A program made the translations under genes and the position numbers. From assembly GCA_003228105.1 (NCBI GenBank), contig QGNN01000015.1, positions 1 to 36,036 of the forward strand: a DNA stretch of 36,036 nucleotides, written 5' to 3'. This document shows positions 8,928-24,313 of this stretch, piece after piece. Below the pieces are notes generated by a model. It made no database searches and was not told where the DNA came from. It worked only from the letters and a program-made list of their open reading frames with translations. The stretch's first letter is position 1. Every line of letters begins with the position of its first letter. Source of the DNA: Chloroflexota bacterium (GTDB lineage Bacteria > Chloroflexota > Dehalococcoidia > Lucifugimonadales > UBA826).

Positions 8928-11609
8928 TTAATTTTTCTCCAGTCTTACCGCGCAAATTTTGTATTCAGGTATTTTGGAATCTGGGTCCAGAGCAGCATTG
9001 GTTAAGAAATTTGCCGCATGTTCTTGTAGCTTCACAAATGGAACAAAAATCTCACCAGACCTCATCTTGTCAGAATAAGACACTCTTCCTTCCATTGTTC
9101 CTCTTCTGGATTTGACAGTGATCCATTCTTCATCGTTAACTTGGTACTTTTCCCCGTCCTCTGGACTTATTGATATAAGAAGCTCGGGTGCTCGGGCTAG
9201 TAACCCTTCAGCTCTTTTAGTGATCGTGCCACCATGCCAGTGGTAAAGTATCCTCCCTGTATTTAATATCAAAGGGAACCTGTCTGTAGGCAACTCATCT
9301 GAAGCAGGACCTTGGTCGAAACCAACAAATTTTGCTCTGGAGCCTCTAGGAAAATCATACTCATAAAGAAATCTCGTACCCGGATGGTCTAGATCAGGGC
9401 AAGGCCATTGAATACCACCACCTTCCAGCCGGTCATAGGTTATACCTGCAATCATAGGAGTTAATGAGGACATTTCATCCCAAATTTCAGAGACGTCCTT
9501 ATATTCAAAATGATCTCCCAAACCCAAACCTTTCTTTATCGATATTCGCTGGGCTAAATCGCAAATTATCTCCCAGTCTGGTCTCGAGGATCCAACTGGC
9601 TTTATAGCCTCTCTGACCCTTTGAACCCTTCTTTCACTATTTGTAAATGTCCCGTCTTTTTCTGCAAATGAACATGCCGGCAAAACAACATCTGCTATTT
9701 GTGCTGTTTCATGTAGGAAAATATCCTGAACAATTAATAATTCTAGTTTTCCGAATGACTCTTCAGCATGATTCAGATCAGGTTCGCTTAGTAACGGATT
9801 TTCACCAGTGATATACATGGCTTTAATACGTCCATTGTCAATCTCACGAACCATATCAGTCACTACTAATCCTGCTTTATCAGGCAGAGGGTTACCGCCC
9901 CAAGCTGTCGAAAATTTTTCTACAGAATCAGCATTTATGGTCTGATAGCCTGGGAATGCATTCGGTAAACATCCAGCATCACCACACCCTTGGACATTAT
10001 TCTGACCACGAAGGGGCGAAATACCCGAACCCGATTTCCCAAGTTGCCCCGTAGCAAACGCCAAATTTAATAGCCCGTGAGCATTAGCAGTACCCATTGT
10101 ATGTTGTGTGATTCCCATACCCCATATAAGACACGAACCACTGAAAGGAGGAGCGGCATACATGCGGGCCGCTTCTATAATATCTGCTTCACTAACTCCT
10201 GTTATGGATTCCACATATTCTGGCGTGTATTTGGTGACAATATCTGACCAGTCGTCAAATCCTTCAGTTCTATTTTTTATGAAATTTTCGTCCGCTAGCC
10301 CATTTTCTAAAATCACATGAGCCATACCATTTAGCAAAGCAACATCTGTTCCTGGTCTTGGTCTGAGCCAAATATCTGCATAGTCGCACATGTCTATTCT
10401 TCGTGGGTTTATAACGATAAGTTTCGCGCCATGCTCGACTACAGCCCTCCGCATTCTGGAGGCGGCTACAGGATGATTAGAATTGGCATCCGACCCTATA
10501 ATCACAAGGCATCCGGCCTCTTCATAATCTATATATGAATTACTGGTCGCTCCGCTTCCAAGAGAGGCCAACATTGCCTCTACGGATGGCGAATGGCAAA
10601 GTCTTGTACAGTGGTCTATATGGTTACTTTGCATAACCAGACGTGAAAATTTTTGTTGTATGTATCCATCCTCATTTGTCGCCTTTGCAGAACATAGTGT
10701 GGCGAAACTATCACCTTCGTAGGCAAGCAATTTATCCGCTATGAAATCCAAAGCCTCATCCCAAGTCGCACGTTGTAAAGACCCATTTCTCCGAACCAAA
10801 GGCTCAGTCAGACGATCTTCATGATGAACAAATGTGTATCCAAATCTTCCTTTTACACATAGCATTCCCAAACTGGAATCATTTTCTGGATCATCCAGCA
10901 TTTCTACGATGGCGTCATCCGATGTTACTTGTGCCTTTATTCCGCAACCAACCCCACAGTAAGGACATGTGGTGATAACAGTTCTTTCAATAACTGCCGG
11001 TTCGACTTTGGTGGAAATAGCGCCTGTTGGGCACACTGATAGACATTGGCCACAGGTAGTACAGATAGATTCCAGCAAGGGCTTATCCATAAAGGTCCCG
11101 ATTCTGGCCTGGCTGGATGTTCCCAAAACATCTATAGCACCAATAAACTGATGGCCTGTTTGGCATGCCTGGGCGCACCTACCACAAAGGATGCAAGAGT
11201 CCATTGCTATATTAAATATTGGGTTGCTGGCATCTGTTTCCTCTCGAGACCGAGATTTCCACACCTGACCACTTATTGAATTGGACTCCATCACTCTAGA
11301 CAATTCCTTGTAATCGTCTTTATCTGAATGGACCATACCAGCAGTTAATTCCAGAACACTCTTTCTTATCAAATCAAGCTTGTTCCCGTTGGTTAAAATC
11401 TTCATACCCTGTGAGATAGGGGTCGAACACGACGCTGGGTAACCACGAACTCCCTCAATCTCCACTAAACAGGTTCGGCAAGCACCAATAGGTTTCATAT
11501 CCGGATCTTTGCATAACTGAGAAATAGCCGTCCCTGAAATGTTGATGGCATCAAGGACGGAACTATGTTCCGGCACCTGAACTTCTTTGCCATTTATGAA
11601 AACTTCCAT
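8928..11609 (-). CDS. fdsA: NAD-type formate dehydrogenase, molybdenum (or tungsten) alpha subunit
   Basis: The 893-aa catalytic subunit oxidises formate to CO2, or runs in reverse, at a bis-molybdopterin-guanine-dinucleotide centre. From the N-terminus it has a [2Fe-2S] ferredoxin domain (C33, C44, C47, C61), two [4Fe-4S] sites (C139/142/145/149 and C183/186/189/193), then the catalytic domain with its own [4Fe-4S] site (C215, C218, C222, C251) and K253 nearby. C338 in LCHSPS is the metal ligand, a cysteine and not selenocysteine, with the conserved H339. A C-terminal pterin-binding barrel completes it. There is no Tat signal, so it is cytosolic, as expected for FdsGBA enzymes. AGGAGGAGG lies before the ATG. 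It follows fdsG and fdsB, its likely NAD-linking partners. Confidence 0.92.
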   Translation of the reverse strand: MEVFINGKEVQVPEHSSVLDAINISGTAISQLCKDPDMKPIGACRTCLVEIEGVRGYPASCSTPISQGMKILTNGNKLDLIRKSVLELTAGMVHSDKDDYKELSRVMESNSISGQVWKSRSREETDASNPIFNIAMDSCILCGRCAQACQTGHQFIGAIDVLGTSSQARIGTFMDKPLLESICTTCGQCLSVCPTGAISTKVEPAVIERTVITTCPYCGVGCGIKAQVTSDDAIVEMLDDPENDSSLGMLCVKGRFGYTFVHHEDRLTEPLVRRNGSLQRATWDEALDFIADKLLAYEGDSFATLCSAKATNEDGYIQQKFSRLVMQSNHIDHCTRLCHSPSVEAMLASLGSGATSNSYIDYEEAGCLVIIGSDANSNHPVAASRMRRAVVEHGAKLIVINPRRIDMCDYADIWLRPRPGTDVALLNGMAHVILENGLADENFIKNRTEGFDDWSDIVTKYTPEYVESITGVSEADIIEAARMYAAPPFSGSCLIWGMGITQHTMGTANAHGLLNLAFATGQLGKSGSGISPLRGQNNVQGCGDAGCLPNAFPGYQTINADSVEKFSTAWGGNPLPDKAGLVVTDMVREIDNGRIKAMYITGENPLLSEPDLNHAEESFGKLELLIVQDIFLHETAQIADVVLPACSFAEKDGTFTNSERRVQRVREAIKPVGSSRPDWEIICDLAQRISIKKGLGLGDHFEYKDVSEIWDEMSSLTPMIAGITYDRLEGGGIQWPCPDLDHPGTRFLYEYDFPRGSRAKFVGFDQGPASDELPTDRFPLILNTGRILYHWHGGTITKRAEGLLARAPELLISISPEDGEKYQVNDEEWITVKSRRGTMEGRVSYSDKMRSGEIFVPFVKLQEHAANFLTNAALDPDSKIPEYKICAVRLEKN

Positions 11610-11626
11610 TAAATTCCTCCTCCTTG

Positions 11627-13135
11627 CTATCCCGGTGATACTTCCTGAAAATATGAGCCATAGCTCAGCACTGGATTGCCAGCGGCTTGACCTAACCCAC
11701 AGAGAGAGGCAGCATTTATAACTTCAGCCAACTGACCAATTCCATTCCAATCAATTGCGTCATCACCGGAGTCATTTGCCATCAACTCCAGTAAACGGGT
11801 AGTACCCTCTCGGCAAGGGGTGCATTTTCCGCATGATTCCCTCGCATTGTACTCAGAGAGCTTTCTAACCACCTCCAGCACATTAGTATCTTGAGATAGG
11901 CCTATCACACCCCCCGCACCCAACATCACTGATTTGCCATCTAAAAATCCTGGGCCTATTGATAAGTTGAGAGATTCAGAAGAGGGTATAACCCCACTTG
12001 AGGGACCACCTACAGCAATGGCAGATAGCGTATTTATACTAGAAATACCCCCGAATTTAACCATCAATTCCGCAAGGTTTGAGCCCATTGGTAACTCTGC
12101 AACCCCTGGAGTATTCACTGACCCGCTGATACTCAAAATTTTCGTTCCTGGAGTATCTGGGTCTCCTATTTTTTTAAACTCATCAGCACCATTAAGAACA
12201 ATCCAAGGCAGGTTACATAAAGTTTCGACATTATTAATGATTGTGGGCTGTTGGTTTAAACCAGATTCAGTAGGAAACGGTGGCCTCAAACGTGGTTCCC
12301 GTCTTTTACCTTCTATGGTATTGAGTAGGGTGGACTCTTCACCACATACATACCCCCCCGCACCTTTTAAGATTTCTATATCAATTGTGAAGCCACTGCC
12401 CATTATATTTGGCCCCAAGAAACCTTTTGAACGACATATTTCTAATGCGTTCAGCATTCTCTGATAAGACAGATGAGCCTCGGCATTCACATATAACCTA
12501 ATGGAAGTAGCTTTGGTAGCGTACGCTGCAATCAGGGCTCCTTCTATAAGACGGAACGGAACGCTTTCCATGACGTGCCGATCTTTAAATACTCCGGGCT
12601 CGCCTTCTTCAGCATTAATTACTATATGTCTTTCCTTGGAAGCTGTAGACATTGCGGAACGCCATTTAATTGAAACTGGAAAATATGCCCCACCTCTACC
12701 TCGGAGACCGGATTCTTCTACCATATCCACCGTTTGTTCCGGCGGCTGCAAAAGAACCTTAGCAAGAGCAGAAAAACCTTTATTTGCTATATATCCATAG
12801 ATGTCGCTAGCACTTATATTACCTGCATGCTCCAAAACTATTCTTGTCTGAGAATCAATGTAGTTCCTGACATTTGAATCACCCGTACTCGTTACTCTAA
12901 TCCCTTCTATATATTCACTAACGTCTTTTTCAGAATGAATCTTGGGACCAGCAAAGCATGCCCCATCGCAACCAGAATAATCCACGGCAATTGAAGCGGG
13001 TAATTTTTCTTCTAAACTCCTGTAAATCTCTTGGGATCCAACAGCCATACTACATTGGCCCACTTGAACCAATACTTCAGCTGGATTATTTACAGCTCTA
13101 TTGGCCACGGAGGTTATAAAATCTAGAGTATTCAT
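11627..13135 (-). CDS. fdsB: NuoF-like NAD/FMN subunit of formate dehydrogenase
   Basis: This 502-aa protein resembles NuoF, HoxF and FdsB and should carry electrons between the iron-sulfur chain and NAD+. The N-terminal thioredoxin-like part (1-80) keeps C28, C56 and C60. The FMN/NAD region begins at GLRGRGGA (143-150) and continues with INAEEGEPG (173-181) and GGYVCGEESTLLNTIEGKR (260-278). The C-terminal [4Fe-4S] ligands are C435, C438, C441 and C479. The motif normally written GRGGAGFPTG reads GRGGAYFPVS here. The gene starts two bases after the fdsG stop and is followed by fdsA after 17 bp. Given its position it could also serve the AOR-family enzyme upstream; this is inference. Confidence 0.92.
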   Translation of the reverse strand: MNTLDFITSVANRAVNNPAEVLVQVGQCSMAVGSQEIYRSLEEKLPASIAVDYSGCDGACFAGPKIHSEKDVSEYIEGIRVTSTGDSNVRNYIDSQTRIVLEHAGNISASDIYGYIANKGFSALAKVLLQPPEQTVDMVEESGLRGRGGAYFPVSIKWRSAMSTASKERHIVINAEEGEPGVFKDRHVMESVPFRLIEGALIAAYATKATSIRLYVNAEAHLSYQRMLNALEICRSKGFLGPNIMGSGFTIDIEILKGAGGYVCGEESTLLNTIEGKRREPRLRPPFPTESGLNQQPTIINNVETLCNLPWIVLNGADEFKKIGDPDTPGTKILSISGSVNTPGVAELPMGSNLAELMVKFGGISSINTLSAIAVGGPSSGVIPSSESLNLSIGPGFLDGKSVMLGAGGVIGLSQDTNVLEVVRKLSEYNARESCGKCTPCREGTTRLLELMANDSGDDAIDWNGIGQLAEVINAASLCGLGQAAGNPVLSYGSYFQEVSPG

Positions 13136-13136
13136 T

Positions 13137-13604
13137 TTAATTTTCTACCAACCTCAGTAAAGCATCACCGGGAACTTGTCTCCCATACCATCTGTGATCT
13201 ACCGATACCGCTGGTGCAACCGAGCACATGAATGCACAATCCGTTTTCTGCACTTCCAAATCAAAGCTAGTTTTATTAGATAAAAATTCCAGTATCTGGG
13301 CTGCTCCATTTTCACGACAAGCCACGCCGTCACATACCGACACTGTTTTTTCCGCAGGAGGGGAAAGCAACAATTCTGTGTACGTAGTTGCGGTACCGTA
13401 TACCTCACTAGCCGGAACACCCAAATGCCATCCTAAAACTTCTAGTCCCCAATCAGACAGGAAAGAAAATTTTTCCTGAAGAAAATGCAAAGCAGGGAGT
13501 AAGTACGACCTATCCCGTGGGAACTTATCTATTAATTCCCCCCGCAAATCGTTTCTTCGTTTTCTTTCCTCGTTATTTGAAGACATATTACTGGCGTTTA
13601 GCAC
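13137..13604 (-). CDS. fdsG: NuoE-like [2Fe-2S] subunit of formate dehydrogenase
   Basis: This 155-aa thioredoxin-fold subunit resembles NuoE/FdsG and carries one [2Fe-2S] cluster. The four ligands are complete: C91 and C96 (CDGVAC) and C123 and C127 (CAFMC). The helical N-terminal region, with LLPALHFLQEKF and GVPASEVYGTATTYTEL, is typical. The longest frame starts at a GTG lying inside the stop region of the upstream AOR gene, a 7-bp overlap; an ATG at 13586 (residue 7) is an alternative. Neither has a strong ribosome binding site, so coupling to AOR translation is likely. It passes electrons in the FdsGBA chain and possibly from AOR. Confidence 0.92.
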   Translation of the reverse strand: MLNASNMSSNNEERKRRNDLRGELIDKFPRDRSYLLPALHFLQEKFSFLSDWGLEVLGWHLGVPASEVYGTATTYTELLLSPPAEKTVSVCDGVACRENGAAQILEFLSNKTSFDLEVQKTDCAFMCSVAPAVSVDHRWYGRQVPGDALLRLVEN

Positions 13605-15400
13605 TCTATACCCAAACTTTTCAACTTTGACTCAGGTATAAGACCATCGCTTGTCCATTCTCTGGCATCATAATAAGACTTAATCATAGTACCCAAGTCA
13701 GATTCACTAAGTGACTGGCGGTTTTCACCATCTGATAGGGGTTCGGAAAATATCCTTTTGGGCAAGTTATCCTGGTCCATAACCCATCCTTCTCGAATGT
13801 TAAATTGCTTTTTCAGATTATTTATTCTTTCGCCGCATCGGGCAAGCTGATTTGGGTCCATATCCCATCCTGTTACGTCATTGAGGATTTCAGAGGATTC
13901 AACATAAAAATCATCAAACACCTTTCGGACGAATTTACACCAAATTAGGGAGTCCATAACCGCACTGTAATCTTCTCCGTCTACAACCATCTGGCCCCTT
14001 GAAAGTTTTCCACTATCGGAGCTTGATGCAAAATCGTACTCATAAGCAGAAGATCTATTATGACACGCCCCTCTGGTGCTTACAGCCAAGGCCAGAGCCA
14101 TAGTATGCAATGATCTGGGCTCATATCCCGGCATTTCAAGACCTTTGACATGCATGGCAAAATCTTCTGTTCCAAGGCCAATTTCTTTACTCACTCTGGC
14201 ACTGCCTTCTGCCAATATATCTCCGATACCTGACCGTTTAGCTATGGCATTTAACAATTTTCTAAGAAGGTCTTCGTCATTTTCATAAGTAGGCAGGAGT
14301 CCCAGCCATTGTTTGGGAAGCAACCCTTTTTGCATACACTCCATAAACCAAGCACAGGTAGAACCGGCACTGATAGTATCCATTCCCATTTCATCACAAA
14401 ATTTACTGCTTTTAAGTATCGTCTCTCTATCGGATATACCGACAAGAGGTCCCAATGCAAATAGTGATTGGTATTCCAACCTCACCTTTGCTGAACCACC
14501 GTTTGGTATGGTCACCAATTTTTCACATCCTATTGTGCAATTAGCGCAATGCGAAGTGGAAACTTTTTCTTCATTATGAATTGCCTCACCAGATATACTA
14601 TGAAAGTCTTTATTTGACTGATTCCTGAAATTCCCTATGGGGAGGACTTTTAATCGCTCAAACACTGAAAGATTTGCCATCGTTCCCAAGGTCCTATATT
14701 TCTCAGTAGCCTCCCCGAGGCTTTTTATAGCTAGCTGTTTTCTGGTTTTGGAAAGATTTGATTCGTTGAAATAATTCAACTTCTTATATCCCTTAAAGGA
14801 TATGGCCTTTATTTTCTTGGACCCCATCACAGCCCCGTTTCCGGTCCGACCGGCCTGCCGGCCCCCATCATTACTGATACTAGCAAACCTCACCATATTT
14901 TCACCCGCTGGGCCTATGCAAGCGATACCGTACCCTGGACCAAAAGTCTCTATCAAATGGCCTTCTGTCATGGAAGTGGTATTCCCCAATAGGTGTGAAG
15001 CGTCGTTGAATTGGATACCAGATTCATCAACCTTCAGAGACAGCCATTGGCTAGATGAACCGAGAATTATGACGGCATCGGCCCCTATACCTTTAATAGA
15101 CAGCGCCAACGAACTTGAAGATAGGGAATCCCCTATGAAGCCTGTTTGGGGTGATTTAGAAACCACTGCGAACTTTGACGTAGTGGTGAGGCGACTCCCT
15201 ACAAGAGGGCTTGCACAAAAAATTAATGGGTTAGCGGGAGAAAACGGGTCCGCTCCGGGAGGACAATAGTGATAAAGAAGATAGGCCCCTAAACCGCTGC
15301 CGCCAATAAAATCTTTGACTACCTCTTCCTGTAGATCTTCCCATCTCCAGGACTTCGTGGAAACGTCTATTATCAGAATTTTATTGTGGTACCCGAACAC
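13598..15400 (-). CDS. Aldehyde:ferredoxin oxidoreductase-family tungstopterin enzyme
   Basis: AOR-family enzymes oxidise aldehydes to acids, or reduce activated acids, at a tungsten or molybdenum bis-pterin centre with one [4Fe-4S] cluster. The 600-aa length is normal. The cluster ligands C285, C288, C292 and C488 match the classical spacing. Pterin-contact motifs are GRTGNGAVMGSKKIKAI (about 185-201), DEMGMDTISAGST (336-348) and KGLEMPGYEPR (419-429), with TRGACHNR after them. There is no signal peptide. Translation starts at a GTG at 15400, six bases after AGGAGG. It sits between a MoaD-like gene and the NuoE/NuoF-like genes, which supports a W/Mo cofactor and suggests that its electrons reach NAD. 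The substrate is unknown. Confidence 0.93.
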   Translation of the reverse strand: MFGYHNKILIIDVSTKSWRWEDLQEEVVKDFIGGSGLGAYLLYHYCPPGADPFSPANPLIFCASPLVGSRLTTTSKFAVVSKSPQTGFIGDSLSSSSLALSIKGIGADAVIILGSSSQWLSLKVDESGIQFNDASHLLGNTTSMTEGHLIETFGPGYGIACIGPAGENMVRFASISNDGGRQAGRTGNGAVMGSKKIKAISFKGYKKLNYFNESNLSKTRKQLAIKSLGEATEKYRTLGTMANLSVFERLKVLPIGNFRNQSNKDFHSISGEAIHNEEKVSTSHCANCTIGCEKLVTIPNGGSAKVRLEYQSLFALGPLVGISDRETILKSSKFCDEMGMDTISAGSTCAWFMECMQKGLLPKQWLGLLPTYENDEDLLRKLLNAIAKRSGIGDILAEGSARVSKEIGLGTEDFAMHVKGLEMPGYEPRSLHTMALALAVSTRGACHNRSSAYEYDFASSSDSGKLSRGQMVVDGEDYSAVMDSLIWCKFVRKVFDDFYVESSEILNDVTGWDMDPNQLARCGERINNLKKQFNIREGWVMDQDNLPKRIFSEPLSDGENRQSLSESDLGTMIKSYYDAREWTSDGLIPESKLKSLGIEC

Positions 15401-15401
15401 C

Positions 15402-15689
15402 TTATCCTCCTGCCTGGCTAGGCAATATCAACAGCGCATCACCATCACATAATTTCAGCTTCTCTGGATCTTGAAATCCAACCCCATTTAAGTTGAAAAC
15501 ATAACTTGACAAAAGTCTCTTATCACCGCTGTCCAAAACTTTACCGCCAAGAGCAGGAAATAGTAGCGCTAAGGCTCTAATAACATCCACGGCACCGACC
15601 TTAGACTCAGTAAACTCCAATTGAACAAGTTTCTGGCCAGCGATGATCCTACTGTTTCCGTATAACTCAACCGTCAAATTAATCGCCAT
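15402..15689 (-). CDS. MoaD/ThiS-like sulfur-carrier protein
   Basis: The 95-aa protein has the small beta-grasp pattern of MoaD: an opening beta strand INLTVELYG, a central helix, and the C-terminal Gly-Gly (SQAGG) that is adenylated and thiocarboxylated. MoaD donates the dithiolene sulfurs of molybdopterin. MoaD-like genes are often next to AOR genes, so this copy may be dedicated to the tungstopterin enzyme. Its first 11 bp overlap mobA. The last two codons, GGA GGA, also form the ribosome binding site of the AOR gene, so the functional C-terminus and the downstream start are tied together. MoaE is not in the window. Confidence 0.85.
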   Translation of the reverse strand: MAINLTVELYGNSRIIAGQKLVQLEFTESKVGAVDVIRALALLFPALGGKVLDSGDKRLLSSYVFNLNGVGFQDPEKLKLCDGDALLILPSQAGG

Positions 15690-16311
15690 TGAAATCTTTT
15701 CCCATTTGCAATGCTGTGAGAAGGTCCTCAGGTGTATTTACGTTAAAAAAACTATCTTCAGAACCTTCGATATTTAGAAATTCATTCTCTGATATCTGAC
15801 ACACCGTGATTTTCGGGAAATATCCGTCCATTTTCAAAAGCCCAGCCTTCAATCTAGTCTCGATATGCTCTAGGCAAGATTTATTATATAAGGCGTGGGT
15901 AGTTTGCAATCTGCCTTCAAATTTAGGAATGACAACATCGGGAGAAGGATCCGAAATTTTGGTCATCATAAATTTTATTAAGGCAGTCGACAAAAACGGC
16001 ATGTCACAGGCCGCCACAAATGACCAAGGAGTAGGGGATTCACTTAGACCTGAAAATAATCCGCCAAGGGAACCCGCTTCGCTGTAAGAATCGACAACAT
16101 AGTGAATTTTGTTTTCTATATCAAGTTCTTCGATTCGTTCCAATCTGTCCACAACCACCGTCTGAGAAGTAGTAATCCCGGCTAACCTTTGTATGGCCCT
16201 ATCGATGATACGGTCATTGCCAATACGTTCTACGGCCTTATCACGTCCTAAACGTCTACTTTTGCCACCTGCTAATAATATCCCGGTTAATTCGATAGGT
16301 ACCATTTGCAT
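15679..16311 (-). CDS. mobA: Molybdenum cofactor guanylyltransferase MobA
   Basis: MobA joins GMP to molybdopterin to make the guanine dinucleotide form of the cofactor, which the formate dehydrogenase in this window should need. The protein is about 210 aa. The nucleotide-binding motif LLAGGKSRRLGRDKA lies near residues 12-26, and the metal-binding CDMPFL is near residue 100. The frame also opens at a TTG at 16314, but the ATG at 16311, overlapping the upstream TGA by one base and preceded by GGAGAGG, is the better start. It overlaps the MoaD-like gene by 11 bp at its 3' end. Assignment is firm from the glycine-rich loop. Confidence 0.93.
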   Translation of the reverse strand: MQMVPIELTGILLAGGKSRRLGRDKAVERIGNDRIIDRAIQRLAGITTSQTVVVDRLERIEELDIENKIHYVVDSYSEAGSLGGLFSGLSESPTPWSFVAACDMPFLSTALIKFMMTKISDPSPDVVIPKFEGRLQTTHALYNKSCLEHIETRLKAGLLKMDGYFPKITVCQISENEFLNIEGSEDSFFNVNTPEDLLTALQMGKDFNGD

Positions 16312-18257
16312 CAACCTACCTCTCCAGCAACATTTCCCATTAGTGAAACGTCATAACCTCCAAGGGAGGCGATCTGGTTTTGTAAATCACCGCTCGAAAG
16401 ACGCTCTAATAAAATATCCACGGTCACAACCGAACCTATAAATTTTGACGGAACCACTATCTGAAACCTCTCGTTTTCCAAAGGTATGAATTCCAGATCG
16501 CTGGCCAGCGCAGCTGCCATGATTCCCATCCCAGCATCAACAAACCCCGAAGACACCGCCGCCGCTACATTCCAATGAGTGTACTCTTCGTTCTCGTAAC
16601 CAATAATTTTGGATGGGTCCAAATCTGACTGCTTTAGCAAATAGTCAAAAAGAAAACGGGTTCCGGATCCTCTTTGTCTATTCATGAATTTTGTATTCTT
16701 CGCAATCAAATCGTTAACTTTTTTTATTTCTTTTGGATTCCCTTTCTGAACCATCAACCCTTGTGTACGGCCCACAAAGTCATATATGCAAACTTTTTCA
16801 TTGGGTATATGCCGTTTTACGGCAGAAAAATTGTATTCCCCAGTTTCTTCATCAAGTAGGTGACTACCTGCCATATGAGCATATCCTTTGGATAGTGCCA
16901 ACAGTCCACCTACACTTCCCACACTAGAAGATATTAATCTGACACCACTTTTTGCAAAAGTTAATTCGCTTGCCAGTATGTCCAAGGCAATATCATGGCT
17001 TCCCGATATAAGTAGGGTTTTATCTATCTCAGAGCGTTGCCGATTTAAAATTACTGAAACGGCCGAACCTTCCTCAATACCCTCTGAATTAGCGGGTATC
17101 TTAATTACACCATCAGATTTGGATATCGATAGAGTCATAGCGGCCCCGCGGGTGGTTGGATTAGCTATGTAGTCTCCATTCACAGGCGCCACTACCACCC
17201 TCAAAAATTCTTCTTCTCCCAATGGAGAGGCGATTTTTTTCCCCATAACTGATTTTATTTGATCTGGAACGATTTCATTGGACTTCAAAAAATCATAAAT
17301 AATTGGCTTTAAAAACAGTTCCGCGGTAGTGAGGGCTGAAGAAGGATACCCAGGCATGCCAATTACTGGTTTCCCCGATACAGAGCCCAATATGACTGGA
17401 TGTCCAGGTCTGATAGCTACACCATGGACAATAACCTCCCCCAATTTGGACATCACAAAAGATGTAAAGTCCTCCGAGCCCGCTGAGGAACCCGCAATAA
17501 CTACCAAAATGTCACAGTCAGTTATAGCATGAAGCAACGCTCGTTCCAACAAAATTGGATCGTCGGGTACCGGGCTTTGAACTGATGCTTCGGCCCCCCA
17601 ATCTTCCGCCAGTGCCGATAGAAAAATGGAGTTAAATTCGATTATTTGGCCTGGTCCTGGAGTTTCTCCGATTTTTACTAATTCAGTTCCAGTTGGGATG
17701 AAGCAAACCTTCGGTGGAATATTAACTCTAACATCTGACAGGCCTGCCGCCCCGAGGCAAGCCAAGTCTAAAGATCTAATTATAGCGCCCTGTTGTAACA
17801 CCAATTCAGGGGCTGCAATATCTTCAGCTATCTTCCTAACATGCTGATATGGAGCTACAGGATTACGAATAAAGATTTCGGTAGCAGAATATTTCTCCAA
17901 ATCCTCTATCATAATCACAGAGTCGAAGCCTTCAGGTACAGGATCTCCAGTATCGACCCATCGAAAAGCGGCCCCTTCGATAAGTTTAATCGGTCTTGTT
18001 TCTGTCGCTCCCAACGAAGATTCGTATCTTATGGCGACGCCATCCATAGCAGAAGTGGTCACATGAGGCGACGATATCTTGGCAAAGACAGCCTGACTAG
18101 AAACTCTTCCAACAGAATCTTTGATGGAGATTATTTCAGTCTCTCTTTTCAAAGGGGAACCGATATCCAATAAATGATTTTGGTATTTATCTTGAGCAAT
18201 TTGAAGTGGGATATCTTTCAGGAAATAATTTCTTTCGAAATCGGCTTGTGGCGACAT
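16311..18257 (-). CDS. MoeA fused to a periplasmic-binding-like (LysR-substrate-type) domain
   Basis: Residues 1-405 are a MoeA protein, the enzyme that inserts molybdate or tungstate into adenylated molybdopterin. It has SAMDGVAI with D72, a GPGQIIEFNS turn and the late motif IRPGHPVILG..GKPVIGMPGYPSSA. Residues about 413-640 form a substrate-binding-protein-like domain with a GRTQGLMVQKGNP stretch and RGSGTRFLFDYL (529-540). This two-part architecture is a known family, frequent in archaea. The loop that usually reads TGDEL reads TGTELV here (T191), so one conserved acidic residue is missing. A regular moeA lies just upstream, so the two copies may have split roles, for instance sensing or choosing the metal; this is inference. 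Confidence 0.9.
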   Translation of the reverse strand: MSPQADFERNYFLKDIPLQIAQDKYQNHLLDIGSPLKRETEIISIKDSVGRVSSQAVFAKISSPHVTTSAMDGVAIRYESSLGATETRPIKLIEGAAFRWVDTGDPVPEGFDSVIMIEDLEKYSATEIFIRNPVAPYQHVRKIAEDIAAPELVLQQGAIIRSLDLACLGAAGLSDVRVNIPPKVCFIPTGTELVKIGETPGPGQIIEFNSIFLSALAEDWGAEASVQSPVPDDPILLERALLHAITDCDILVVIAGSSAGSEDFTSFVMSKLGEVIVHGVAIRPGHPVILGSVSGKPVIGMPGYPSSALTTAELFLKPIIYDFLKSNEIVPDQIKSVMGKKIASPLGEEEFLRVVVAPVNGDYIANPTTRGAAMTLSISKSDGVIKIPANSEGIEEGSAVSVILNRQRSEIDKTLLISGSHDIALDILASELTFAKSGVRLISSSVGSVGGLLALSKGYAHMAGSHLLDEETGEYNFSAVKRHIPNEKVCIYDFVGRTQGLMVQKGNPKEIKKVNDLIAKNTKFMNRQRGSGTRFLFDYLLKQSDLDPSKIIGYENEEYTHWNVAAAVSSGFVDAGMGIMAAALASDLEFIPLENERFQIVVPSKFIGSVVTVDILLERLSSGDLQNQIASLGGYDVSLMGNVAGEVG

Positions 18258-18272
18258 TGTTAGCCTTTATAT

Positions 18273-19502
18273 TTAATCTAAATAAACCTTTACAAGAGTG
18301 TCTTTATATATGCCGGAAGATTCAGAGTCGATTTCAACATATCCGTCAGATCCCAATATAGTGGAAATTAGATTAGATTTTCCATGTACCGGTACAGCGA
18401 AAATTTTACCATTTTCATTTTTTAACTGGACCCTGACATAATCCGTTCTACCACTAGTTGAAGGTAAATTAGAATTCAGAATTGCCTCAACAATTTTGTG
18501 ACCAGGAAATATTTTTTGACCAGCTATTAAACGTAACAAAGGGTCTACAACCACCTTGAATATAGTAATTGCAGACACTGGATTGCCCGGTAGACCGATT
18601 ATAGGCTTCCCAGCAGAGAACCCTAAAATTGTAGGTTTGCCAGGTTTTACAGATAACCCATGTACCAATACTCCTGGGGAGCCCATTTTGTTAATCACTT
18701 GTGCTGTGAGATCTCTAGAACTTATCGAACTACCTGCCGTGAAAACAACCATGTCCGAGATTTCTATTGCCCTTTTAGCGACTTCCAATAGCTCATTAAA
18801 TTCATCCGGAACTCTAGGAAACAAGGTAGGTAAGGCGCCAAGGCCTTCAACGAGAGTTCCGATCGTGTACAGATTAATATCCCGGATCATGCCTCCTTTT
18901 ACCTTTTCTTTGGGTGGAACTAATTCGTCTCCTGAAGATATAACTGCTACTTTAGGGCTCCGGTAGGCTTGGATGGAGGTTATCCCTAAAGACATTAACG
19001 CTCCTAATTCCGCATGACCAATTATTGTTCCAACTGCCAGTATGGAATCCCCAATTTGGAAGTCTTCACCGGCCATAATAACGTTCTCCCCCGATGCTAC
19101 GGGTCTATAAACTTCCAGAAGGCCGGTAGGTGTTATTTTTGTGTGTTCCACCATTACCACTGCATCAGCATTATTCGCCAACATTCCCCCTGTATAAGCA
19201 GTGGCCGCCTCTCCTGGGGACAGGGATAAAAATGCCTCACTGCCCATAGGTATTTCCCCCACCAATTCAACATATGCAGGAAGTGCATCAGATGCCCCAT
19301 AAGTATCAGAAGCTCTTACTGAATAGCCATCCATAGAAGATCTGTTAAAAGATGGGGAATTCTCCTCACTAACTACTCGTTTTGCAAGTGTTCTACCAGT
19401 AGCATCTTCTGTGTAGACTGTCTCAAATCCAACAGAAGATATCTTTTCAGACATCAAACTTATCGCATCTGGCGGTGATATCACGTTGAAGAAATTAGCC
19501 AT
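18273..19502 (-). CDS. moeA: Molybdopterin molybdotransferase MoeA
   Basis: This 409-aa protein is a standard MoeA. It has SSMDGYSV with D58, GEDF with D147, SSGDELV with D192 and the C-terminal signature KPGKPTILG..GKPIIGLPGNPVSA, where the paralogue has GYPSSA. It catalyses metal insertion into MPT-AMP, the last common step for mononuclear Mo and W enzymes. The frame opens with TTG then ATG; the ATG at 19502 follows GAGG and is preferred. It lies 15 bp before the MoeA-PBP gene and 51 bp after fhs. It is the copy with all the expected acidic residues and is the likely catalytic one. Confidence 0.94.
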   Translation of the reverse strand: MANFFNVISPPDAISLMSEKISSVGFETVYTEDATGRTLAKRVVSEENSPSFNRSSMDGYSVRASDTYGASDALPAYVELVGEIPMGSEAFLSLSPGEAATAYTGGMLANNADAVVMVEHTKITPTGLLEVYRPVASGENVIMAGEDFQIGDSILAVGTIIGHAELGALMSLGITSIQAYRSPKVAVISSGDELVPPKEKVKGGMIRDINLYTIGTLVEGLGALPTLFPRVPDEFNELLEVAKRAIEISDMVVFTAGSSISSRDLTAQVINKMGSPGVLVHGLSVKPGKPTILGFSAGKPIIGLPGNPVSAITIFKVVVDPLLRLIAGQKIFPGHKIVEAILNSNLPSTSGRTDYVRVQLKNENGKIFAVPVHGKSNLISTILGSDGYVEIDSESSGIYKDTLVKVYLD

Positions 19503-19553
19503 CAAAACCTCATCTAACCAAGTTATTAAGGCATGGCCAACCCAAATTAAATT

Positions 19554-21246: not shown

Positions 21247-22482
21247 TTATTGGTACCGTCTAATCTCTGGGTGTTTAAAAGTTATCCAAACCGTGAAAAG
21301 TATCAACAAGACCGCTAACACTGCAATTGAGCCTTGCCCACCTAACCAATCCGCCATAAGCCCTGCAGGCAATACGCCTAGGGGCATTAATCCCCAGTTC
21401 AACATATATATACTCATCACCCGCCCACGGTATTCTTCCTCAGCCTCCTCCATTATCAGGGCCATGTTAATGGACCGACGACCTGCATCGCCGAGGCCTA
21501 AAGGAAGCATTATTAATGCAGCAAATAAATACAGAGGTACAGCGGCAATCAAGAGGAGACTAAATCCTGACAAATACGAACTGATAAGTAGCACTTTCCC
21601 ACGCAATCTGCTGCCAAGGGAGGCTATATAAATAGATCCTATTAGGGCCCCGAGCCCCATAACAGAAACCAGTAAACCCATTGAATCTGCTTTCAACTCA
21701 TATATATCTACTATGAAAACTGGCATTATAAATCTAAAGGGCTGAGCTAAAATAGTCGTAGATAAAGCAATAGCGAGAAGTATCAAAATAAAGGAATTGT
21801 TACGAACATATTTTAATCCCTTAAGCATATCGTTAATTAGAACCGAAGGGCGATTGGAATCGGATGCTGACCCATTCTTTGGGGCCACACTGTATCCTTT
21901 GTTTTTTATCAGCATAGTGAATATGATCGAAGAGAAATTGAGAACTGTTATCAGCAAGTAAACTTTGCCAGGGCCAATGAATTCATAAAGTAATCCAGCT
22001 GCAGTAGGTGCGGCCAAAGTGCTGAAACTCATAGCAGCAGCATTCAGAGCCACAGCATTTGACACCAATTTCTGTCCTACCATTTGAGGAATTAAAGCTT
22101 GCCGAGCGGGCATCATAAAGGCGAAAACTGCTCCCTGGACAATCGATGCGATTAGCAAATGGACCCAAGTAACATTCTCAGTCAAAATTAAAATCGCAAC
22201 AACCAGCGATACGATACCTGCCAAGAGCTGCCCGGCTTGAATTATTCGTTTTTTGTGAAAGCGATCAGCAATGACACCACCAACCAACGCCAATGTAAGC
22301 ATAGGTATAGCCGAACCTGCATTAACTATTCCAAGGAGCATGCCAGAATTCTCAAGTTCGTAAACGAAGTAGCTCCTAACTAGCATCTGCATGTTCATTC
22401 CGAACATTAAGGTAAGCATCCCTATCCATAAAAAGAGAAAATCCCGATTCTTTAAAGACTGATAAGTCTCTGAAAAACTCAC
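21247..22482 (-). CDS. MFS transporter, drug/siderophore-exporter-like
   Basis: A hydrophobic protein of about 411 aa with roughly twelve membrane segments, in the major facilitator superfamily and closest in style to MFS_3 exporters (EntS-like). Early motifs are SLKNRDFLFLWIGM and, after the second helix, GGVIADRFHKKRIIQ, the MFS A-type loop. The frame is open back to a TTG at 22524, but the GTG at 22482 gives the usual family N-terminus; neither has a good ribosome binding site. The substrate is unknown. The leader carries a promoter and a multi-helix RNA-like element at 22547-22631, so expression may be controlled by an RNA switch or a structured 5' UTR. The C-terminal half is regular. Confidence 0.85.
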   Translation of the reverse strand: MSFSETYQSLKNRDFLFLWIGMLTLMFGMNMQMLVRSYFVYELENSGMLLGIVNAGSAIPMLTLALVGGVIADRFHKKRIIQAGQLLAGIVSLVVAILILTENVTWVHLLIASIVQGAVFAFMMPARQALIPQMVGQKLVSNAVALNAAAMSFSTLAAPTAAGLLYEFIGPGKVYLLITVLNFSSIIFTMLIKNKGYSVAPKNGSASDSNRPSVLINDMLKGLKYVRNNSFILILLAIALSTTILAQPFRFIMPVFIVDIYELKADSMGLLVSVMGLGALIGSIYIASLGSRLRGKVLLISSYLSGFSLLLIAAVPLYLFAALIMLPLGLGDAGRRSINMALIMEEAEEEYRGRVMSIYMLNWGLMPLGVLPAGLMADWLGGQGSIAVLAVLLILFTVWITFKHPEIRRYQ

Positions 22483-22546: not shown

Positions 22547-22631
22547 CCCTCTGGAATGATTCAAAGGGGGCCCGAACCACGGTAGACTCTCATTCAAAAG
22601 AAAGGTCACCGCAGGTGTTCAGTTCGGACCC
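22547..22631 (-). ncRNA. Candidate structured leader RNA (riboswitch-like) upstream of the MFS gene
   Basis: Read on the minus strand this 85-nt segment folds into four helices. P1 pairs 22622-22631 with 22568-22577 (10 bp). It encloses P2 (22614-22617 with 22607-22610, 3-nt loop) and P3 (22600-22604 with 22587-22591, 8-nt loop). P4 (22562-22568 with 22547-22553, 8-nt loop) follows directly and shares one base with P1. P1, P3 and P4 each contain one position that is a G-U pair on the minus strand but a C-A mismatch on the plus strand, which points to a minus-strand RNA. A promoter just upstream would start transcription near 22634. I match it to no known riboswitch class. It could also be a small RNA or a palindromic repeat. 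Confidence 0.5.
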
Positions 22632-22640
22632 GTTTGAACT

Positions 22641-22668
22641 TATATAAATCGCACCGCAACTTTACAAA
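22641..22668 (-). promoter_or_regulatory. Candidate sigma-70-type promoter for the MFS leader
   Basis: On the minus strand, TTTGTA (22663-22668) and TATATA (22641-22646) are separated by 16 bases. The predicted start of transcription near 22634 is three bases before the first helix of the structured leader. The match is decent but was judged by eye in an AT-rich region. Confidence 0.4.
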
Positions 22669-22834
22669 CAAACTATTCATATTAGTTAGTACGGTTGTTG
22701 ATTCTATCATTACGTGCCCATTTCATAGGTGGAGAAGATTTGGTCTATAGAAATTGAAATTTGTAGCGAAAGAAGTGGTATCTGAAATTATGCTATGACC
22801 GTCAAGTACATGAAGCTCTAATTTAAATATGGTT
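22669..22834. other. Non-coding stretch between the MFS promoter and the aldolase remnant
   Basis: Together with the two flanking elements this makes a region of over 700 bp (22483-23230) without an intact gene. I see no further open frame, tRNA-like fold or long repeat in this part. It is AT-rich and contains stops in all frames. It may be decayed sequence from the aldolase gene whose front survives at 22835-23065. Confidence 0.5.
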
Positions 22835-23065
22835 TTAATCGTACCTTCCAATTCTCGGTGTGCCGAATTGAAAAAATCCTATGCGGGTATCTCCTCCGTA
22901 TATCCTGTCTGGAAAGCCTAAAAATATTCTTCCAATCTTAAATCCCGTTAAGCACATAAGCAGCGTTCCCATCAATTCAGCTACGTTCGGGCTTTGAAGC
23001 CCTACAAAAGGTCCTTTAGCTGGTTTGCCTGATAGCAGATCATTTCTAACGCCATTTATTCTCAT
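22835..23065 (-). pseudogene. Remnant of a HpcH/HpaI-type aldolase gene (N-terminus only)
   Basis: The 76-codon frame begins with MRINGVRNDLLSGKPAKG and continues PFVGLQSPNVAELMG, which matches in style the first 33 or so residues of HpcH/HpaI (2-keto-3-deoxy acid) aldolases. After that the sequence no longer resembles the expected AGFDW..D.EHG stretch, and it ends at a stop after 76 codons, where a full gene would have about 255. An intact-looking ribosome binding site AAGGTGG and an ATG remain, so the front of a real gene seems preserved while the body is deleted or scrambled. It differs from the complete aldolase at 29309-30091. A short functional protein cannot be excluded. Confidence 0.4.
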
Positions 23066-23230: not shown

Positions 23231-24313
23231 ATGAGTAATTCATTCGGCAAAGCGTTCAGAATAACAACCTGGGGAGAATCGCACGGTGATGCTGTGGGGG
23301 TGGTAATAGACGGATGTCCGCCAGGCTTACCTATAAATTTGGAAGATATTCAAAGGGAACTCGACCGACGAAGGCCGGGACAAAGTGAAATATCCACTCA
23401 ACGGAAAGAAGGGGACAAAGCTGAGATATTATCGGGAGTATTTGAAGGATTATCTTTAGGAACCCCAATCTCAATTTCAGTGTGGAATACTGACGCGAAG
23501 GGCAAAGATTACGAGCATATGAAAAGCGTTTACCGACCTTCCCATGCTGATTATACCTATCAAGCCAAGTACGGAATCAGGAATTGGAAAGGTGGTGGAA
23601 GAGCCTCTGCCAGAGAAACTATAGGGCGAGTTGCTGCGGGAGCGATAGCAAAGAAGTTTTTATTGGCGGAATATGGCACTGAAATTGTTGCCTTCGTCAA
23701 GAGAATAAGTCACATAGAGTCAAACATTGGACACGAAGAGATAACCTTAGAAGGAATCGAAAGTAACATGGCCCGATGCCCAGACCAAGATGCTGCAGTC
23801 GCAATGATAGAAGCAGTCAAAACGGCTAGGAAGAACGGTGATTCATTGGGCGGGGTTGTGGAAGCGTTTGCGACAAATGTACCGGTTGGAATTGGGGAAC
23901 CTGTGTTCGACAAATTAGATGCTGACCTAGCAAAAGCAATGCTATCTTTGCCTGCCTGTAAAGGGTTTGAGGTCGGATCCGGTTTTGATGGAACCTACTC
24001 AACAGGCTCCCAACACAATGATCCTTTCTACATGTCGGAAGGTACAGTTCGAACCAAAACTAACAACTCTGGTGGTATTCAAGGTGGAATTAGTAACGGG
24101 GAATCCATCATTTTAAGGGCCGCATTCAAGCCAACAGCGACGATTATGAGTTCTCAGGATACAGTGGATGTTTTTGGCAATGATGTCGAATTGCAAGGTA
24201 GAGGGCGTCACGATCCATGCGTATTGCCAAGGGCAGTTCCAATCGTGGAATCTATGTTCGCCCTAGTACTATGTGATCACGTTATTCGCCATAGGGGACA
24301 AACAGGAAAATAA
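23231..24313 (+). CDS. aroC: Chorismate synthase
   Basis: AroC removes phosphate from EPSP to make chorismate, the branch point for aromatic amino acids and folate, and requires reduced FMN. The 360-aa protein has the signature [10 protein letters not shown] with H18, [10 protein letters not shown] with H105, the FMN-contact region [18 protein letters not shown] (121-138), and the late motif [13 protein letters not shown]. Length and motif order are standard. The ATG has only a weak, distant AGG upstream. The gene stands alone on the + strand, with a 3' hairpin terminator shared with the convergent SDR gene. Confidence 0.97.

Follow-up and report, generated by a model that had tools for sequence, protein, structure and literature searches.

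What is the conserved stretch that lies, in the window (the whole 36,036 nt of DNA analysed, from a genome assembly of 1.6 Mb), between the divergent genes for chorismate synthase (aroC) and an MFS exporter (Table 1)? A sequence-only reading had drawn it as a four-helix leader RNA of the exporter and had considered a new riboswitch class, a small RNA or a repeat. After comparison with relatives, we regard it as probably an independent small noncoding RNA gene, found in a subgroup of SAR202, a major deep-ocean bacterial group, and sharing its promoter region with the divergent aroC.

Structure and strand of the hairpin

Read on the minus strand, positions 22547-22634 fold with an energy of -38.7 kcal/mol (z -4.1), which none of 200 shuffled sequences equalled, while the four-helix drawing reaches only -27.2 kcal/mol (with P4 cut to 5 bp for scoring, since P1 and P4 share a C). 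With a DNA search (E <= 0.001), each of the eight genomes of the genus yielded a match, as did five further genomes of the family; for most members of the genus, the match begins only a few bases away from P1. Compensatory changes were present in 11 of the 23 pairs of an earlier structure, hand-drawn for ten family sequences, and a first covariance model was built from the same ten sequences. The larger alignment (A4, 52 sequences) was aligned to that model, but 42 of its sequences lie outside the training set, so that it provides a largely independent test: 94.2% of the pair cells are paired (24–49% in a control with the partners slid), double changes occur in 21 of the 23 pairs, and the 198 cells with compensatory changes are matched by none of 500 shuffles, as expected of a conserved structured RNA. 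Cells with G-U pairs outnumber those with A-C (92 vs. 9), which fixes the strand as minus, in agreement with the polarity first proposed.

The conserved element is, by this comparison, an irregular hairpin of 64 nt. Of the four helices originally drawn, P1 stands, with 99.8% of its cells paired in the 52 homologues; each of the nine pairs counted shows compensatory changes. The proposed P2 (CACC-TGC-GGTG) is contradicted, pairing in only 41% of cells, as is the proposed register of P3, paired in 72% of cells with zero compensatory change; P4 (22547-22567, minus strand) occurs in most genomes of the genus, though not in G003 (locus L007), and is absent from other genera. In the family consensus, P1 (9 bp) is followed by the bulge YUG-AACAC, P2 (7 bp), P2b (3 bp), the loop CU / UGAGN and a P3 of 3–5 bp, capped by a variable loop. 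Hardly any variation is seen in two internal loops, AACAC on the one hand and CU opposite UGAG on the other: across 29 family or genus groups, conservation is 97–100% for AACAC, CU, GAG and the C-G pair that closes the loop. Folding of single sequences recovers P1 nearly everywhere but the inner helices in only 49–65% of cells; the inner part therefore rests on covariation. Finally, the length of the hairpin varies by non-multiples of three, which argues against a reading frame.

Table 1. Position of the hairpin, its parts and the neighbouring features in the window
Feature	Position	Strand	Basis or remark
MFS exporter (EntS-like), GTG start	21247..22482	-	Pfam MFS_1/MFS_3; NCBIfam below cut-off; inconstant downstream neighbour
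Conserved hairpin	22568..22631	-	covariation in 52 homologues and fold energy
P1 (9 bp)	22631-22623/22576-22568	-	covariation, 52 homologues
Bulge CUGAACAC	22622-22615	-	between P1 and P2, 5' side
AACAC bulge, unpaired, 97–100% conserved	22615..22619	-	column counts, 29 family/genus groups
P2 (7 bp)	22614-22608/22583-22577	-	covariation, 52 homologues
P2b (3 bp), bulged U22584	22607-22605/22587-22585	-	covariation, 52 homologues
Internal loop, CU opposite UGAGA	22604-22603, 22592-22588	-	covariation, 52 homologues
UGAGA, 3' side of conserved internal loop (GAG 97%)	22588..22592	-	column counts, same 29 groups
P3	22602-22600/22595-22593	-	covariation, 52 homologues
Extended -10 TGATAGAAT, conserved promoter motif	22701..22709	-	TGNTANNNT in 42/49 loci
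aroC, chorismate synthase	23231..24313	+	divergent, constant neighbour

Distribution in SAR202 and comparison with RNA families

With the first covariance model, 54 of 250 genomes from the order showed a single match each. The rebuilt model matched 58, including two weak matches (G018 and G052) that are not beside aroC and were discounted; the match in family f18, which adjoins aroC and shows the fold, was retained. The RNA is thus carried by about 56 of the 250 genomes of this order (the SAR202 cluster of Chloroflexota), in 19 families and always as a single copy per genome. Outside the order, only weak, short or partial matches were obtained from 393 genomes across the class and 400 across the phylum, among them two stretches of 35–39 nt (G675, G716) and one sequence devoid of the 3' half of the motif (G810). 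Exact-pattern matches in unrelated genera are about as numerous as estimated by chance and reach no more than 18 bits under the model, and viral contigs yielded no exact pattern match. A dispersed repeat or the end of a mobile element, for which several copies per genome would be expected, is refuted by copy number and covariation: each genome has one copy, its position is conserved, its pairs covary and the viral contigs lack it, so that we give this explanation practically no credence.

None of the 4227 models of Rfam 15 matches the hairpin, at gathering or lax thresholds and weak scores included, which bears out the original remark that it belongs to no known riboswitch class; a tRNA/tmRNA search was equally negative. 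Like the bacterial small SRP RNA (RF00169), it is a single-copy hairpin RNA of comparable length, but the RF00169 model does not match at the locus, and a separate RF00169 gene lies elsewhere in all eight genomes tested, which rules out that identity. In the literature, we found no account of the hairpin RNA, nor of small RNAs of SAR202's own. The family is new to the databases searched and apparently undescribed. It resembles the orphan structured RNA candidates published earlier (e.g., the set of 104 motifs, PMC2864571) in that these, too, were found by covariation and have conserved loops, a restricted lineage and an open function; it differs from them in matching no Rfam model.

In the families bearing the RNA, AroC is 66–75% identical to that of the window, whereas the aroC of the sampled families without the RNA is a different one (32–39% identical), with no RNA beside it. 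These two unrelated lineages split the SAR202 order, which suggests that aroC may have been replaced in one branch. A joint arrival of the RNA with its aroC lineage was considered and rejected: other Chloroflexota classes have an aroC 59–72% identical to that of the window, without the RNA upstream. The RNA hence marks a lineage of SAR202 and does not accompany this type of aroC in general.

Neighbouring genes and promoters

In the loci studied, the RNA is located 5' of aroC and its transcription is directed away from it. In most members of the window's genus, the two are separated by an aldolase gene; the window keeps only a remnant of its first 34 codons (22964-23065), 91% identical to the intact gene of a sister species. 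At a few GC-rich loci, the automatically called frame in the expected place of aroC (cluster c3) is taken to be an antisense frame over aroC. On the other side, the gene is most often an MFS exporter, followed in several families by FTHFS and MoeA. Elsewhere, FTHFS comes directly, or else a Xan_ur permease, an amidohydrolase, an aminotransferase IV, a PhyH or an AIR-synthase-like gene, and at some loci the downstream genes have no Pfam match. Proteins of about 210 aa that belong to one family, again without Pfam match, are encoded near the RNA in several SAR202 families (e.g., L083:4184-4858, L100:4134-4763, L079:1790-2419). In the window, positions 8928-19505 carry a molybdenum/tungsten enzyme cluster: a molybdopterin oxidoreductase, an aldehyde ferredoxin oxidoreductase and two MoeA-type genes near FTHFS.

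Could the RNA be a cis-acting leader, i.e., a riboswitch or a protein-binding attenuator that forms part of the 5' UTR and controls the gene or operon that follows (often MFS-FTHFS-MoeA)? At 46 of 48 loci, the first downstream ORF has the same direction as the RNA, as would suit a leader too, the exporter is directly downstream in most families and FTHFS in others, the conserved loops are aptamer-like, and the stem with a U-run could be a regulated terminator. The structure as first drawn does end 65 nt before the GTG (at 22482), and its placement before transporters recurs widely, but the constant neighbour is the divergent aroC: the RNA persists where unrelated genes replace the exporter, the downstream genes have no common function (related genes would be expected behind a riboswitch), and the next gene is on the opposite strand in f2 (L097) and at one f6 locus (L095). 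Moreover, no alternative pairing able to act as a switch was found between the bulge and its 5' or 3' flanks: with the upstream flank, the mean longest match (3.2 vs. 2.5 in shuffled sequence) was judged not convincing, and with the downstream flank there is no excess over shuffled sequence.

Promoter motifs also bear on this point. The -35/-10 pair initially proposed (22641-22668, minus strand) is not conserved in the sister species, which keep instead the extended -10 lying further upstream. Of 49 loci, 42 have the motif TGNTANNNT at a distance of 20–75 nt upstream of P1, where base-shuffled sequence gives 3.4; judged from sequence, the RNA has a putative promoter of its own, as a small RNA gene should, and in the window its start site would be near 22694. 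Before the MFS start, a TANNNT hexamer (of TANACT/TAAGAT type before the ATG) stands 6–8 nt upstream in seven families (f2, f3, f6, f11, f31, f36 and f37), compared to 5% per ATG in a gene-body control (window of 4–8 nt), which suggests that the exporter mRNAs are leaderless there. Such a putative separate promoter, together with a run of at least four U after P1 in eight families (15 of 49 loci), speaks against the exporter leader originally envisaged. No separate exporter promoter was recognised in f1, f16 and f39, nor a clear one in the window's family, where the U-run is likewise absent; in such lineages, the leader is the main rival. Overall, we consider it unlikely, yet deserving of serious attention. 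Transporter-gene riboswitches and attenuators are comparable in their aptamer-like internal loops and in the exporter downstream in most families; the hairpin RNA differs from them in that its downstream genes lack a common function and many have their own promoter, and in that no expression platform is recognised.

In 28 of 49 loci, the extended -10 located between aroC and the RNA is symmetric (ATGNTANCAT), hence readable both ways; it is seen at 22701-22709 in the window and at homologous loci. This suggests a bidirectional promoter. Promoters with symmetric -10 elements have been described for E. coli (PMC12825309), and the likeness lies in a single -10 read in both directions; compared to those, the promoter of aroC and the RNA is putative, and one of its arms would yield a conserved structured RNA. 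The symmetric element and the U-run would also suit a passive insulating hairpin that halts transcription on the non-coding side of a bidirectional promoter of aroC. We find this improbable: a plain terminator has no need of invariant unpaired loops, and two thirds of the loci lack the U-run.

A candidate small RNA and its possible role

An independent small RNA, one of the options first listed, is now the favoured reading. It is preferred because nearly all pairs covary in a single-copy element without reading frame, because the RNA stays by aroC while the functions downstream change without common theme, and because of its own promoter motif, the separate exporter promoter in seven families and the U-run in eight; the scarcity of that U-run, absent in the window's family, counts against it, as do the want of a clear exporter promoter in that family and the shared direction of the RNA and the first downstream ORF. 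Its structure, strand, single copy, position and promoter motif are established by comparison of homologues, and we infer from them that it acts on its own instead of switching the gene that follows.

The RNA would be transcribed away from aroC out of the shared promoter region, as a discrete transcript running from just past the TGNTANNAT motif to P1; the product, probably of about 90–130 nt, would consist of a short variable 5' tail and the long irregular hairpin, of which the outer stem, with the U-run of several families, may act as its own terminator. The two nearly invariant loops (AACAC and CU/UGAG) could then bind a protein or another RNA. We found no conserved target or partner: candidate target sites (CAGGTGTTCA) are mostly within coding sequence, with no start-codon site in common. 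We tentatively propose, as a possibility that falls short of likely, a lineage-specific RNA with a trans-acting regulatory or protein-partnered role, co-expressed with aroC via the bidirectional promoter.

That the RNA has a function is very likely, given its single copy across 19 families and its nearly invariant unpaired loops. The alignment pinpoints the loops and stems to be mutated, and the covariance model is ready for transcript searches in marine metatranscriptomes.
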